A stretch of 64,000 bases of DNA from an uncultured Acidimicrobiaceae bacterium (GTDB lineage: Bacteria > Actinomycetota > Acidimicrobiia > Acidimicrobiales > RAAP-2): positions 37,147 to 101,146 of the forward strand of contig CAIQOJ010000087.1 in the NCBI GenBank assembly GCA_903873395.1. The letters are read 5' to 3'. The position numbers and the translations under genes are program-made. Within the stretch, counting starts at the first letter, position 1. Every line of letters begins with the position of its first letter. Shown in pieces: positions 16,568-22,808 of this stretch. Under the pieces are notes generated by a model. That model had not been told where the DNA came from. It saw only the letters and a list, made by a program, of their open reading frames with translations, and did not search any database.

Positions 16568-17971
16568 TCAGCGGAAGCTGTTCGGGCTTCCACCGCCCGA
16601 AGGACCCCGCCAGCCCGGACCAGCGGTCTGGCTTGACGTCCCGGTCGAGGTCGACGAGCCACCCTGACTTCCACCGTGACCCGGTCCCCAGGTCCACGGC
16701 TGGCCCGTTGCGTTGTCACCCTGCTGATTGGGAGCTGACGGTGCTGGCTGCTCGGTGGTCGAAGGCGTCGGGGCCGGAGGCGGCGAGGCTGGAGGCGGTC
16801 CCCACATCCCACCGTGACCGTGCGATCCATCCGAGGTGCCCGGTGCTTCCGACGATGCTGACGATTCTGGTGCTTCTGACGTCTCGGGTGCTTCCGGTGC
16901 CTCCACGAACACCTTGGTGGCAGCCACCGTGTTTGCCGTGTTGGTGCCGAAGACCGCTACATGGGTGCCGACCACAATGCTGGAGAACGCCGCCGAAGCA
17001 CCGTCGTGGCCTACGTAGGTGGTGGAGCCATCCACGGTCACGGTCACCGTCGTGCCATGGAACGACGTGACGGTGAAGGCGTCAGTGCCCACCGTGGCGA
17101 CCGTACCCATGGTGGCTGGCACTCCGTTGACCCCATGGGAGCCTTCGGGGGAACCATCACCGGCGGGATCCGTCGTCGTTGCACCCTCGCCACCGGTGGC
17201 CGGCGGGCCATCCCCACTCGGATGAACGGGCAGCACGATCACCTTGGTTGCCGCAACCGTGTTCGAGGTGTCGGTGCCAAAGACAGCCACCAGCGCACCC
17301 ACGGTCACATCGCTGAACGACGGCGAAGGCACTGCCGGATCGAGATACGTCGTCGCTCCGTCGACGTTGGCCGTGACGGTCGTGCCGTCCTTGGTCGTCA
17401 GCGTGAAGGTGTTGGCACCCACTGTCGCCACCTTCCCGAACGCGGCCGGAGGGGTGGTTCCGAATGATGGAGGCCCATGATGACCACCCATGCGGTGATT
17501 GGGTACGCCGATGATCACCTTGGTGGCGGTCACGGTATTTGCGGTGTCCGAACCGACGACGGCCACGATCGAACCGACCACCACATCGCTAAACGAGGGT
17601 GTGGCGACATCATGATCGAGGTAGGTGGTCGAGGCATCGACATTGACCGTCACCGTCGTGCCGTCCTTGGTGGTCAACGTGAAGGAGTTGGTACCTACCG
17701 TCGCCACCTTGCCGAACGCCGCAGGCGGGGTCGACCCGAAGGGCGACATGCCGTGGGGCCCTGGATCGTGGTGGCCCACCGGGGCCGAAGGAGCAGTGAC
17801 GGCATTGGCGATCGCTGCACTACCCACGGTCAGTCCGACCACCGCCGCTACAGCCGATGCCACGCGTACACTCCGGCGACCTGGCGTCTTGGATACGGTG
17901 CTTCCTGCATGGGGTGTTGCGACCTCTGGAACCATCATCGGTTCCGATCCACCCTCGAACCCCTCGCCCAT
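16568..17971 (-). CDS. Secreted protein with three tandem DUF5666-like repeats
   Basis: 467 residues from ATG 17971, with GAGGAG 8 nt upstream. The membrane/signal segment is RVASAVAAVVGLTVGSAAIANAV (~35-58). Three ~75-residue repeats follow, each with the pattern GKVATVGTNSFTLTTKDGTT, TTYLD, FSDV.VG..VAV.G.D, TVTATKV, separated by His/Gly/Pro-rich linkers. A long low-complexity tail (Pro/Ser/Thr/Glu, EAPEAPETSEAPE) ends the protein. The beta-rich repeats resemble DUF5666 modules of exported proteins. A cell-wall or extracellular role is inferred. The repeats are similar enough for recombination to change their number. Confidence 0.75.
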   Translation of the reverse strand: MGEGFEGGSEPMMVPEVATPHAGSTVSKTPGRRSVRVASAVAAVVGLTVGSAAIANAVTAPSAPVGHHDPGPHGMSPFGSTPPAAFGKVATVGTNSFTLTTKDGTTVTVNVDASTTYLDHDVATPSFSDVVVGSIVAVVGSDTANTVTATKVIIGVPNHRMGGHHGPPSFGTTPPAAFGKVATVGANTFTLTTKDGTTVTANVDGATTYLDPAVPSPSFSDVTVGALVAVFGTDTSNTVAATKVIVLPVHPSGDGPPATGGEGATTTDPAGDGSPEGSHGVNGVPATMGTVATVGTDAFTVTSFHGTTVTVTVDGSTTYVGHDGASAAFSSIVVGTHVAVFGTNTANTVAATKVFVEAPEAPETSEAPESSASSEAPGTSDGSHGHGGMWGPPPASPPPAPTPSTTEQPAPSAPNQQGDNATGQPWTWGPGHGGSQGGSSTSTGTSSQTAGPGWRGPSGGGSPNSFR

Positions 17972-18126: not shown

Positions 18127-18669
18127 CTAGGGCGCATGCTGGTCATCAGGTGTCGCTTTGGGCAGGATCGCATGCACATCGGACCAGCCCATCCCCACCG
18201 TCTCCGCCAACACGGTGCGGGCCGTCGGATCGACAACGACAAAGAACGGGTAGCCGCTGACCCGATAGTCCGACCACGCTCCTTCGCTCATCACCACAGG
18301 GACTGAGCCCATCTCGACCGACACGGCGGCAACGTCGCCGGGCGCAACATGCTCTGGTCCCTTGGTCACGACCACAGCCCGTACCGAGGAAAGCCCTGGC
18401 TCACAGAGTCCGGAGCCATCCGGGCGATCAGCAAAGCCGACCCAAAACTCGTGACACCCGAGGCAGTCGACAGAAAGGAAGGCCAACAGCAGCGGGCGAT
18501 GATCTGTCTCGTCGACGGCAATCGTCAACGGATTCCCGGTTGGGTCCTTCCCGACGATCGAGGCGGCAGGCCAGCCGATCGCCCCGCCCACACCGCCAGT
18601 CGGCACCGGTCGAAGGCCGCCGAGGAACAGCGGGTCCGTCAGAGGGTTGGGATCCGTGGACTCATGCAC
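18127..18669 (-). CDS. Thioredoxin-fold-like protein
   Basis: 180 residues from GTG 18669, 17 nt after the stop of the zinc-ribbon gene and behind a GAGGGA motif. The ORF-track start at 18753 overlaps that gene and adds Arg-rich shadow sequence. It shows the redoxin layout: IGWPAASIVG, a strand, RPLLLAFLSVDCLGCHEFW with a CxxC after the first long strand, ...VPVVMSEGAWSDYRVSGYPFFVVVDP with a cis-Pro position. No signal peptide is visible, so it is probably cytoplasmic or anchored otherwise. The partner is unknown. It probably forms an operon with the zinc-ribbon gene. Confidence 0.65.
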   Translation of the reverse strand: MHESTDPNPLTDPLFLGGLRPVPTGGVGGAIGWPAASIVGKDPTGNPLTIAVDETDHRPLLLAFLSVDCLGCHEFWVGFADRPDGSGLCEPGLSSVRAVVVTKGPEHVAPGDVAAVSVEMGSVPVVMSEGAWSDYRVSGYPFFVVVDPTARTVLAETVGMGWSDVHAILPKATPDDQHAP

Positions 18670-18686
18670 GGGAGTCCCTCGCCGAC

Positions 18687-18983
18687 TCAGGCTCCGTTGC
18701 CCACTTCCGGCTCGATCGGCTCGACGGCGTTTCCATGGCCACACCACCGACACGACACCTCCCCCACCGACTCCTCGAGCACTTCGACGTCTTCAACGTC
18801 GAGCTCGCCGCCCACCGTGTAGTGGTGAAAGGCTCGTGTCGTCCGGGTTGTTGTCACGTCGAACCGGGTCAAGTTGCCACAGGCGGCACAGCGATAGCGA
18901 ACGGCGCTGTCGGCGGAAGTCGGAGCGGGCACGGCAGTCTCGTCGGCGGTCACGATCAAGACGGTACTCGGTGGCACACGCAC
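18687..18983 (-). CDS. Small zinc-ribbon protein
   Basis: 98 residues from GTG 18983. Two CxxC knuckles (RYRCAACGN and VSCRWCGHG) about 45 residues apart suggest one zinc ribbon; the segment between is polar with an acidic run (DVEDVEVLEES). No family is assigned. The start lies 16 nt from a LexA box shared with the divergent exonuclease gene, so this small operon may also answer to DNA damage (inference). Confidence 0.6.
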   Translation of the reverse strand: MRVPPSTVLIVTADETAVPAPTSADSAVRYRCAACGNLTRFDVTTTRTTRAFHHYTVGGELDVEDVEVLEESVGEVSCRWCGHGNAVEPIEPEVGNGA

Positions 18984-18999
18984 CTGATCGCACGACTCC

Positions 19000-19013
19000 C
19001 GAACATCTGTTCG
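19000..19013. promoter_or_regulatory. LexA (SOS) box CGAACATCTGTTCG
   Basis: Palindromic CGAAC-N4-GTTCG. It matches the actinobacterial/Bacillus LexA consensus CGAACRNRYGTTCG at every position except one of the central four. It lies directly upstream of a -10-like TACAGT (19015-19020) and 13 nt before the ATG of the exonuclease-GIY-YIG gene. A repressor bound here would cover the promoter. Confidence 0.8.
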
Positions 19014-19014
19014 C

Positions 19015-19020
19015 TACAGT
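19015..19020 (+). promoter_or_regulatory. -10 box TACAGT, probably giving a leaderless mRNA
   Basis: TACAGT ends 6 nt before ATG 19027, so transcription would start at or next to the start codon. The same TACAGT-GCAGCC arrangement precedes the epimerase ATG at 29262. Confidence 0.55.
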
Positions 19021-19026
19021 GCAGCC

Positions 19027-20478
19027 ATGGCACTCGTCGTGCAACGGTCGTTCGACGACCTCGGCACCCCATTGTCCGACGTCACCTTCGTGGTGCTCGA
19101 CGTCGAGACAACAGGGGGCTCCCCGGAGAGTGCCTGCCTCACCGAAGTGGCAGCCGCCCGCTACCGAGGGGGCGAACTTCTCGCCACCTACCGGACGTTC
19201 GTGCGACCCGACACCCGGATCCCTCCCTACATCACTGCCCTGACCGGGATCAGTGATGCCATGGTTTCCGACGCTCCACCCGTCGGGGAGATGCTCGCAT
19301 CCTTCCTCGAGTTCTTAGGCGGCGCAGTCGTCGTTGGGCACAACGTTCGCTTCGATCTCTCCTTCATCAATCATGCACTCACGGCCACCGGCCGACCTCG
19401 ACTGACCAATGCCACCGTCGACACCCTGGCCCTAGCTCGCCGCCTTGTGCGCGACATGGTGCCCAACTGCAAGTTGGGCACCCTCGCCTCCTCGCTGCGC
19501 CTCGAGCATCAGCCGTGTCACCGCGCCCTGGACGACGTGCTGGCCACCGGTGATCTCCTCCATGCACTGCTCGAGCGAGCCGGTACGTTTGGGATCGTTG
19601 GACTCGAGGAGCTCCTCAACCTGCCCAAGTTGGTGGGACACCCTCAAGCCGACAAACTCCGCCTCACTACCCGGCTACCGCATCGCCCCGGTGTCTACTG
19701 GTTCTGCGATGCGGCAGGGAATGTGCTCTATGTCGGCAAGGCCACCGATCTCCAGAGTCGTGTCCGGTCATATTTCTCGGGCGATTCCCGGCACAAGATC
19801 GGCCAGCTGCTTCGCCAGCTCGACGCTGTCCATCACCACGTGTGCCCCGGCCCACTTACTGCTGCCGTTCTCGAAGGACGACTGATCCGAGCGTGGGCTC
19901 CTCCCTTCAACCGCCAGGGCAAAGTCCGTCGAAACCTCCCCGGCACACCTGAATCCAAGCCGAAGCGGTCACGGCGCAGACGAGGTGACCCGACGATCGA
20001 CCAGCTTGAGGGGGATCCTGCCGTCCTGCTCGGCCCACTCGCCGAGCGTCTGACCTCACTCTCGCTACACCAGCGCTACGAGGACGCAGGCCGTGTTCGC
20101 GACGAGGCCGAGCGCCTCCGTCACCTGCTGACGCGGCATCGCCGAGTCGAGTCGCTTCGACGCGTGGGGCGGATCGAACTCGTGATCGACGGTGAGGGCC
20201 TGGTGACACTCGACCGTGGTCTGCTCATCGAAACCGCGTCACTCTTCGGGCCCGAAGGCAGCACCGTTGCGACAACGGATCCCGCATTCACGCTGAGTGC
20301 CGATGGTCATGAGAACGAGCGGCTGATCGTGGCCCAGTGGCTCAAAGCGCATCCGGAGAAAGTACGCGTGGTCAAGGTGGAAGGGGGCGAAGGATTGGCC
20401 ATGCCAGCAGACCGGATTCCCAGACTCACCGAGTTGTGCCGCTCCGCTCCCCCAATTGGCGGTCCGTCAGCGCCTTAG
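19027..20478 (+). CDS. DEDDh exonuclease fused to a GIY-YIG (UvrC/Cho-like) nuclease
   Basis: 483 residues. Residues ~18-185 form a DnaQ-like 3'-5' exonuclease: Exo I DVETTG (25-30), Exo II VVGHNVRFD, Exo III HRALDDVLATGD with the DEDDh His. From ~219 comes a GIY-YIG domain: GVYWF...VLYVGKATDLQSRVRSYF, then LEGRLIRAWAPPFN with the catalytic-type Glu. A UVR-like helix pair follows (HQRYEDAGRVRDEAERLRHLL). The architecture is known in Actinobacteria as a DEDD exonuclease-GIY-YIG protein related to Cho/UvrC incision. A LexA box over the promoter supports an SOS repair role. Leu97 uses the rare codon TTA. Confidence 0.9.
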   Translation: MALVVQRSFDDLGTPLSDVTFVVLDVETTGGSPESACLTEVAAARYRGGELLATYRTFVRPDTRIPPYITALTGISDAMVSDAPPVGEMLASFLEFLGGAVVVGHNVRFDLSFINHALTATGRPRLTNATVDTLALARRLVRDMVPNCKLGTLASSLRLEHQPCHRALDDVLATGDLLHALLERAGTFGIVGLEELLNLPKLVGHPQADKLRLTTRLPHRPGVYWFCDAAGNVLYVGKATDLQSRVRSYFSGDSRHKIGQLLRQLDAVHHHVCPGPLTAAVLEGRLIRAWAPPFNRQGKVRRNLPGTPESKPKRSRRRRGDPTIDQLEGDPAVLLGPLAERLTSLSLHQRYEDAGRVRDEAERLRHLLTRHRRVESLRRVGRIELVIDGEGLVTLDRGLLIETASLFGPEGSTVATTDPAFTLSADGHENERLIVAQWLKAHPEKVRVVKVEGGEGLAMPADRIPRLTELCRSAPPIGGPSAP

Positions 20479-20511: not shown

Positions 20512-21624
20512 TCAGCTGACTTCCTCGGATGCTGCTTCGACCGTGATCCGCACAAACGACTCGAGCGCGCTGTGGGCACTCCCATCGTCGAGTGATGCCT
20601 CGGCCAGGGCAACGCCTGCGCCTAGATAAGGGGCGCGGCCAATGACCACCAGTGCAGCAGCCGCATTGAGCACGGCGATGTCCCGATGGGCAGAGCGCTC
20701 ACCGGCCAGGACCGAACGGATGGCGGCGGCATTGACGGCAGCGTTCCCCCCGACGAGGTCTGCGAGGGTGGCCCGGGCAATCCCGAGATCAGATGGATCG
20801 AGTCGCCAGGTCGAAACATCCACCGCACCGTCCTCAGCCACCACGAGCTCATGGACGGTGGACGGACCAGTGGTGGAGAGCTCATCGAGCCCGTCGTCGC
20901 CGTGGACAACCATGGCTCGCCGAGTCCCATTGGCTGCCAGCACCCCCAACATGTTGTCGGCCATCGATGGGTCGCTCACTCCCACCACCTGGTAGCGGGC
21001 CCGGGCCGGATTGGCCAGGGGACCCAGATAGTTGAAGACCGTGGGGATGCCCAACTCCCTTCGCACGGGGCCGGCATGACGCATGGCCGGGTGGAACCGA
21101 GGGGCGAAGCAGAATCCGATACCGATCTCGTCGATGCACCGAGCTACGCCAGCCGGGCCGAGATCGGCCACCGCACCCAGCGCCTCGAGCACGTCGGCTG
21201 CTCCGACCGCCGAGGACGATGCCCGTCCCCCGTGCTTGCACACTTTGGCGCCCGATGCCGCAACGATGAACGAGGCGATCGTCGACACGTTGATGGACTG
21301 GAGCCGGTCACCACCGGTCCCACACGTGTCGACCAACTCGATGCCGTCGGGCAGTTCGAGCGGTAGGGCATGGGCCAACATGGCCCGCACGAACCCGGTC
21401 ATCTCCCCCACCACCGCACCCTTGGCCCGCAGGGCGACGGCCATGCCGGCGATTTGGACCGGCGTTGCCCGCCCGCCTAGGACTTCGGACAGAACGGTCT
21501 CGGCTTCATCGACGGCCAAGGACTGGCCATCGAGCAGACGAGTAAGCACGCCAGGCCAGGACCCGAGAGCCTCGAAGGATGCGGTCGGAGTATCGGTCGT
21601 GCCCGTTCCCGGCGCCATGCTCAT
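20512..21624 (-). CDS. trpD: Anthranilate phosphoribosyltransferase
   Basis: 370 residues from ATG 21624, 2 nt after the acyl-CoA dehydrogenase stop; ATG 21618 is also possible. It has the PRPP-binding DTCGTGGD, NVSTIASFIVAASGAKVCKHG, RASSS..GAADVLEALG and PRFHPAMRHAGPVRRELG, where the two Arg contact anthranilate. NYLGPLANPA follows. It transfers phosphoribose to anthranilate in tryptophan synthesis. No other trp genes are nearby; coupling to a fatty-acid gene is unusual but may be only positional. Confidence 0.93.
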   Translation of the reverse strand: MSMAPGTGTTDTPTASFEALGSWPGVLTRLLDGQSLAVDEAETVLSEVLGGRATPVQIAGMAVALRAKGAVVGEMTGFVRAMLAHALPLELPDGIELVDTCGTGGDRLQSINVSTIASFIVAASGAKVCKHGGRASSSAVGAADVLEALGAVADLGPAGVARCIDEIGIGFCFAPRFHPAMRHAGPVRRELGIPTVFNYLGPLANPARARYQVVGVSDPSMADNMLGVLAANGTRRAMVVHGDDGLDELSTTGPSTVHELVVAEDGAVDVSTWRLDPSDLGIARATLADLVGGNAAVNAAAIRSVLAGERSAHRDIAVLNAAAALVVIGRAPYLGAGVALAEASLDDGSAHSALESFVRITVEAASEEVS

Positions 21625-21626
21625 CT

Positions 21627-22808
21627 TCAGTCCCACCACAGGTCATGGTTGAGCACGCCTCGGCCGATCAAGCCGAGCTGGACCTGGGAGGTTCCCTCCA
21701 CAATCGTCAGTTGGCGGGCATCGCGATACCAGAGCTCGGTCGGATGGTCTTCCATGTAGCCCGCAGCGCCGAGGAGCTGCACGGCGAGTCCCGAAGCCCG
21801 AACGGCCACTTCGGTGGCGTGATACTTCGCCATCGACAACAGGGGGACGTACTCTTTGGTGAACCGACCCTGGTCGGCCATCCATGCCGAGCGATAGGTA
21901 AGCAGTCGCGCTGCCTCGATGTCGACGGCCACCTTGGCGATCTCCCACTGGATGCCCTGGAAGTCGGCGATGGTCTGGCCAAATGCCTCTCGCTGCTTGA
22001 CGTACTCAGTGGCGTACATCAGCGCACCCTCGGCTAAGCCGATGCCGCGGGCCGCCACGATGGGGCGCATGGCATTGAGGCCGAGCATGGCAAGTCGGAA
22101 CCCACCGACTTCGCCGATGACATTCTCTGCAGGGACGTGCACCTGATCGAGCAGGAGTTCGCCAGTGTCGACGCCTCGCACGCCCATCTTGCGGTCGGTC
22201 GAGCCGACGGAGACACCGTCCCACGAACGTTCCACGATGAAGCCGGTGATCGAGTCGTGGGCTCGACTCGACGGATCGCCCGTCTTGGCGAAGACCGTGT
22301 ACCAATCGGCCTGCACCACTCCCGACATCCAGCACTTGGTGCCGGTCAGGATCCAGTCGCCCTCATGGCCGGGGCGGTCATCGGGCACGGCGCGAGTGCG
22401 CATGCCCGCCACGTCGCTACCCGCTTGAGGCTCGGACAGTCCGAATGCGCAGCGCATGTCGCCCGTGGCGATCCCAGGGAGGTAGCGCTGCTTCTGGTCG
22501 TCGTTGCCAGCGATGAGGATCGGACCGGTCGGCAGCCGGGTGAGGAGCAGCATGAGGGCGGCGGTATTGGAGTACTTCGCCACTTCCTCGATGGCGATCG
22601 TCAGGCCGAGGATGCCTGCGCCGGAGCCACCGAGCTCGGTGGGCAGGCAGAGACCGAGGAGGTCGGCATCCCGGAACGCATCGAAGATGTCTTGAGGGTA
22701 GGCGCCGGTGGTGTCGATCTCCCGAGCCCGTGGTTTGATCTTGTCCTGAGCGAGTCGGCGCACCGACTGCTGGAGTTCGGAGAGTTCAGGGGTCAGGTCG
22801 AAGTTCAC
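21627..22808 (-). CDS. Acyl-CoA dehydrogenase
   Basis: 393 residues from GTG 22808 (VNFDLTPELSELQQS...). The ORF-track start at 22877 overlaps the divergent SDR gene. It has the three-domain ACAD fold: helical N-terminus, beta domain with CAFGLSEPQAGSDVAGM (FAD/substrate contact) and KCWMSG, then C-terminal helices with REAFGQTIADFQGIQWEIA, LLGAAGYMEDHPTELWYRDARQLTIVEGTSQ. The Glu in VEGT is at the usual catalytic-base position. It introduces the alpha,beta double bond into an acyl-CoA. The neighbourhood (dienoyl-CoA-reductase-like SDR, enoyl-CoA hydratase) fits beta-oxidation. Confidence 0.92.
   Translation of the reverse strand: MNFDLTPELSELQQSVRRLAQDKIKPRAREIDTTGAYPQDIFDAFRDADLLGLCLPTELGGSGAGILGLTIAIEEVAKYSNTAALMLLLTRLPTGPILIAGNDDQKQRYLPGIATGDMRCAFGLSEPQAGSDVAGMRTRAVPDDRPGHEGDWILTGTKCWMSGVVQADWYTVFAKTGDPSSRAHDSITGFIVERSWDGVSVGSTDRKMGVRGVDTGELLLDQVHVPAENVIGEVGGFRLAMLGLNAMRPIVAARGIGLAEGALMYATEYVKQREAFGQTIADFQGIQWEIAKVAVDIEAARLLTYRSAWMADQGRFTKEYVPLLSMAKYHATEVAVRASGLAVQLLGAAGYMEDHPTELWYRDARQLTIVEGTSQVQLGLIGRGVLNHDLWWD

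Follow-up and report, generated by a model that had tools for sequence, protein, structure and literature searches.

A LexA-type box in the promoter spacer of an exonuclease-Cho-like fusion nuclease of Acidimicrobiales and its predicted place in the SOS response

In Escherichia coli, cho is under SOS control, and Cho (YdjQ) is an SOS-regulated extra GIY-YIG nuclease beside UvrC from which 3′ incision is expected. UvrC contains a GIY-YIG domain and a UVR motif, together with an RNase H-like/EndoV domain, an HhH and a four-cysteine cluster. An actinobacterial architecture named 'Cho-like+Exo' was described in 2006 by Dunin-Horkawicz et al. (PMC1564403); it was reported to contain an N-terminal exonuclease, a GIY-YIG domain, a C4 (four-cysteine) region and a UvrB-binding motif (Table 1 of that paper), and incision plus 3′ digestion was proposed as its role. 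An iron-sulfur loop downstream of the GIY-YIG domain of UvrC was reported to act in DNA binding, as cited in PMC9426483 and PMC8837605. The LexA consensus of Streptomyces venezuelae obtained by ChIP-seq is tCGAAC-N4-GNNCGa (PMC9380542). No paper tying the exonuclease-Cho fusion to LexA was found in a literature search.

The window analysed here is the whole stretch of 64,000 nucleotides from an uncultured Acidimicrobiaceae bacterium, and was found to contain a fusion nuclease of this kind with the following features at and around its promoter:

18127..18753, minus strand: 208-aa protein of predicted thioredoxin fold with the motif C97-x-G-C100 (AlphaFold model, Foldseek)
18687..18983, minus strand: 98-aa Zn-ribbon protein with two CxxC motifs (open reading frame), a neighbour and not a conserved LexA target
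18992..18997, plus strand: ACGACT, putative weak -35 element (sequence)
19000..19013, no strand: CGAACATCTGTTCG, LexA operator (SOS box) as judged by sequence, same-genome regulon motif and conservation across the order
19015..19020, plus strand: TACAGT, putative -10 element of the nuclease promoter (sequence)
19027..20478, plus strand: 483-aa nuclease (Pfam, alignments, AlphaFold model), with a DEDDh exonuclease at residues 22-177, a GIY-YIG domain at 221-289, an Arg-rich linker at about 297-325 and a UVR-like helix at about 337-365, followed by a small C-terminal domain
20512..21639, minus strand: trpD-like gene, convergent neighbour (open reading frame)

The box at 19000-19013 was the only perfect copy found by a sequence scan of the window. 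Between it and the nuclease ATG at 19027 lie 13 nt; the GTG that opens the divergent Zn-ribbon reading frame, at 18983, is 16 nt away on the other side. These positions confirmed the first-pass annotation, which had placed a LexA box before the nuclease and 16 nt from the divergent start. The whole source genome (2.82 Mb, 94% complete) was found to contain ten sites of the form CGAAC-N4-GTTCG against three of the reversed control pattern. Inspection of the flanks of all ten sites placed two perfect boxes before lexA and one each before recA, ruvC, imuA (with imuB and dnaE2 behind it), the window nuclease and a PcfJ-like gene; the other three lie within coding frames, probably by chance. A third, near-perfect box of lexA, CAAACATCTGTTCG, has the same core as the window box. 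The form found at the nuclease is identical to the operators at lexA and recA, the motif equals the Streptomyces LexA ChIP-seq consensus (PMC9380542), and a LexA with DNA-binding and S24 domains is encoded in the source genome. As far as sequence can tell, CGAACATCTGTTCG is a real box that matches the actinobacterial LexA operator, and the earlier proposal of the nuclease as a plausible SOS gene gained strong support from this regulon context and from conservation.

Two further observations concern other sites of the source genome. The PcfJ-like gene is an open reading frame of about 508 aa (L311:941-2495; G000:C108:17440 onward) with a perfect LexA-type box, CGAACGCATGTTCG, 11 nt upstream; it contains a C-terminal PcfJ-like domain (PF14284, E=4.1e-6), is divergent from an alpha-galactosidase-like gene and is a possible further SOS gene. 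At ruvC (L010:~1501-1514) and imuA (L009:~1501-1514) the box was found to include the likely ATG start codon, and TACTAT or TACCAT occurs 7 nt ahead of it. This suggests that these promoters are leaderless and that the operator covers their start site.

In the nuclease promoter, the putative -35 and -10 elements were found to be separated by a spacer of 17 nt that is filled by the box. As TACAGT lies 6 nt before the nuclease ATG, the +1 position is predicted at this ATG and the mRNA is probably leaderless. Relatives outside the family contained TTGAC(G/T) at the same -35 place, and most same-family relatives contained CTACAGTG after the box; in nearly all members of the family the box-to-ATG distance was 27-28 nt and a -10 element came after the box. 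The operator thus overlaps the predicted promoter and is conserved in orthologues, and a box in the promoter spacer is, by this predicted geometry, the layout expected where a repressor keeps RNA polymerase off the promoter. In several relatives (L033, L190, L196, L207, L213, L218 and L221-L223), two perfect boxes 15-120 bp apart were found upstream of the nuclease, and these pairs suggest tandem operators.

The distribution of the box was followed by three protein searches over 198 relatives, with the box scored in 150+30-bp windows. The Zn-ribbon homologue was found to be common (143 of the 198) and the nuclease patchy. Among the 44 nuclease genes, including two incomplete ones (G173, at a contig end, and G123, in which the box is kept although the GIY-YIG domain appears lost), 43 contained an upstream box with at most one mismatch and 38 of these were perfect; Zn-ribbon genes without a neighbouring nuclease contained a box at one mismatch in 2 of 52 cases and a perfect box in none (Fisher p=1e-23 for the two groups of genes, shared ancestry being ignored). 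A second collection, of named genomes, which partly overlaps the first and whose best hits were all from Acidimicrobiia or unclassified actinobacterial assemblies, contained the box at 79 of 80 nuclease loci, 68 of them perfect, and the search in relatives suggested with the first-pass annotation thus came out in favour of the nuclease side. Two genomes of the same genus (G008 and G002), in which trpD adjoins the Zn-ribbon gene, contained lexA, no nuclease and no box, and four genomes with unlinked nuclease and Zn-ribbon genes (G126, G128, G133 and G184) contained the box at the nuclease only. In linked genomes, the conserved parts of the two genes were found to lie from 44 to more than 500 bp apart, the distance of the box being fixed to the nuclease start and widely variable to the Zn-ribbon gene. 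Four homologues with the DEDDh domain only, the GIY-YIG domain being lost, contained no box, and a nuclease without a good box was found in a few relatives of the order (L029, L238, G307 and G339). Absence of lexA as the cause of missing boxes was ruled out, since lexA was found in 189 of the 198 relatives, including most of those without the nuclease; three genomes (G003, G123 and G131) contained the box with lexA undetected, perhaps because of assembly gaps. The box and the nuclease are thus coupled in evolution, and because the box tracks the nuclease and is missing where the nuclease is absent, it belongs, on these sequence comparisons, to the nuclease. As a separate observation, DEDDh-only versions (L315, L316, L317, L319 and L320) were found beside trpD and/or the Zn-ribbon gene in some relatives; four of them have no box, and L320 has kept one together with a residual C-terminal part.

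Two other readings of the palindrome were weighed against this assignment. It is extremely improbable that the palindrome arose by chance or serves a regulator other than LexA: the three copies inside coding frames, among the ten in the genome, would speak for this, but the same motif stands at lexA, recA, ruvC and imuA, it is kept with the nuclease across the order and in part of the phylum, and shuffled 180-bp upstream windows contained a perfect site at a frequency of only 0.0001 (0.011 with at most one mismatch). A chance palindrome was ruled out by these frequencies together with the genome-wide site counts. The other reading is a bidirectional SOS promoter, at which LexA would also repress the Zn-ribbon and thioredoxin-like genes and both would be damage-inducible; the end of the box lies 16 nt from the annotated GTG, bound LexA could hinder a Zn-ribbon promoter there, and many relatives show this divergent layout of the two genes. 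This reading is nevertheless improbable, because none of the 52 nuclease-less Zn-ribbon genes has a perfect box while lexA is mostly kept in their genomes, the box stays by the nuclease start over the whole range of intergene distances and goes with the nuclease alone in the unlinked genomes, and the vicinity of the box shows no good -10 element that could serve the Zn-ribbon gene. The earlier claim of a box shared with the Zn-ribbon/thioredoxin-like pair was not borne out by the 52 genes, nor was the naming of the two proteins as damage-linked candidates by the nuclease-less genomes of the same genus; a shared operator was ruled out by the nuclease-less genomes without a box. Under the preferred assignment of the box to the nuclease, the Zn-ribbon and thioredoxin-like genes appear to be bystanders that would at most be affected incidentally, for example if LexA could exert a steric effect on the Zn-ribbon promoter in the source genome. 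A box in a divergent promoter should be credited to both genes only after relatives have been checked.

The neighbours are tied to the damage response by nothing beyond adjacency. The Zn-ribbon protein showed a weak match to an RNA polymerase subunit P-type ribbon, and neither it nor the CxxC protein gave a significant match in the Pfam search. The AlphaFold model of the 208-aa protein was confident at residues ~60-200 (pLDDT 84-97), its best Foldseek hits were to ResA (E=4e-7), and its Cys pair (CxGC) was invariant in 20 homologues. A ResA/TlpA-type thioredoxin fold is therefore a model-based prediction; the CxxC motif is common to ResA/TlpA thioredoxin-like proteins, whereas the neighbour has no significant Pfam family and contains the motif CDGC/CLGC. 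The Zn-ribbon and thioredoxin-like genes were found to stay paired in several genomes without the nuclease, and in relatives without the nuclease the Zn-ribbon gene is directly adjoined by trpD. The window gene at 20512..21639 is presumably this trpD, a name given by recognition of its sequence rather than by a family search. Elsewhere in the window, a 467-aa reading frame (16568-17971, minus strand) was found to contain three repeats of about 90 aa rich in TVATVGT...TTVTV...TTY, followed by a Pro/Ser/Gly-rich tail; it had no match in Pfam or NCBIfam and is possibly a surface protein.

The nuclease was found to contain RNase_T/DEDDh (E=1.6e-30) and GIY-YIG (E=6.9e-7, over the cut-off) matches in Pfam, and its AlphaFold model (pLDDT 82) was confident over both domains. 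Across 29 relatives, the catalytic residues D25, E27, D110, H165 and D170 of the DEDDh domain and G222/Y224, Y235/G237, E283 and N295 of the GIY-YIG domain were invariant. For the UVR motif the window protein scored 14.9 bits, under the Pfam cut-off of 21.5, and 16 of 29 family members had a UVR match at E<=0.01. The best NCBIfam model, of the PRK07883 type, scored 393 bits, below its curated cut-off of 454. Among the Foldseek matches listed for the nuclease model only DEDDh exonuclease structures were found, and none for the C-terminal part.

Compared with the described systems, the nuclease shares the N-terminal DEDDh/ExoIII-type exonuclease, the UvrC/Cho-type GIY-YIG domain and, putatively, the UVR-type (UvrB-binding) helix with Cho-like+Exo proteins, including the mycobacterial fusion, and its identity to out-of-family members is 54%; it is placed in the actinobacterial Cho-like+Exo lineage by descent. 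Cho, in contrast, lacks the exonuclease part, and its C-terminal domain is of another kind (PMC1564403). Unlike UvrC, with which it shares the GIY-YIG domain and a putative UVR motif, the window nuclease contains no RNase H-like/EndoV domain, HhH or four-cysteine cluster. The window family differs from other Cho-like+Exo proteins in the segment between the GIY-YIG and UVR parts: in the alignment, the C4 segment of about 100 aa was absent in 18 of 18 same-family nucleases, with an Arg-rich linker in its place, and all 12 proteins sampled beyond the family contained it. We infer that the missing segment corresponds to the iron-sulfur loop of UvrC. The Cho-like+Exo fusion itself is already known; its C4-less form with the Arg-rich linker is new. 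The source genome contains uvrA, uvrB and uvrC as a uvrB-uvrA-uvrC cluster; its separate full UvrC keeps its cysteines, and no perfect box was found in the scanned stretches around the cluster.

Taken as a whole, the locus very probably carries a LexA operator in the promoter spacer of the nuclease, which would be an SOS-induced enzyme that is recruited by UvrB and combines Cho/UvrC-like incision with 3′-5′ exonuclease action. In undamaged cells, LexA on the box would block RNA polymerase; after damage, RecA-triggered cleavage of LexA would free the promoter, and the nuclease would be made from a probably leaderless mRNA beginning at the ATG. The UVR-like helix would dock the nuclease on UvrB at the lesion, the GIY-YIG domain would cut one side in the manner of the Cho/UvrC 3′-incision enzyme, and the DEDDh (3′-5′ exonuclease) domain would trim from the nick or from nearby 3′ ends. 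It is unlikely that LexA binds the box but that the C4-less nuclease of this family no longer takes part in nucleotide excision repair and serves the damage response as a general 3′ exonuclease or a processor of flaps. The loss of the C4 segment in all 18 members, set against its retention in the UvrC of the source genome, and the sub-threshold UVR score of the window protein, would fit such an enzyme; against it, all or most members keep the active-site residues of GIY-YIG and the UVR-like helix, and the four relatives without GIY-YIG are also without the box, a joint loss which suggests that the function under regulation involves the endonuclease domain. Returning to the incision reading, an enzyme without the C4 segment may differ in its incision chemistry or in its choice of partner. 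Tentatively, and as a possibility with only slightly more in its favour, this one family of Acidimicrobiales may hold a C4-less, SOS-induced, one-protein incision-and-resection enzyme, UvrB-dependent or independent, that works without a [4Fe-4S]-type loop and in which LexA control and GIY-YIG are gained and lost together.

Outside the class, about half of the nuclease loci (24 of 52 by our count in a phylum-level sample) contained the box, in a family-wise pattern: it was present in families such as f66, f72, f74, f75, f78, f89 and f103 and absent in f76, f88 and other families, whose LexA motif may differ. Because of this family-wise presence at about half of the loci, LexA control of the fusion nuclease looks old and not universal in the phylum. 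Since about 2006 the fusion of exonuclease and Cho has stood as a curious domain combination in actinobacteria, with a role that was only proposed (PMC1564403). A LexA operator that is near-universal in Acidimicrobiia would place the fusion in the SOS response and make that proposed role directly testable, and the loss of the C4 segment in one family would provide a natural test of the function of this segment.
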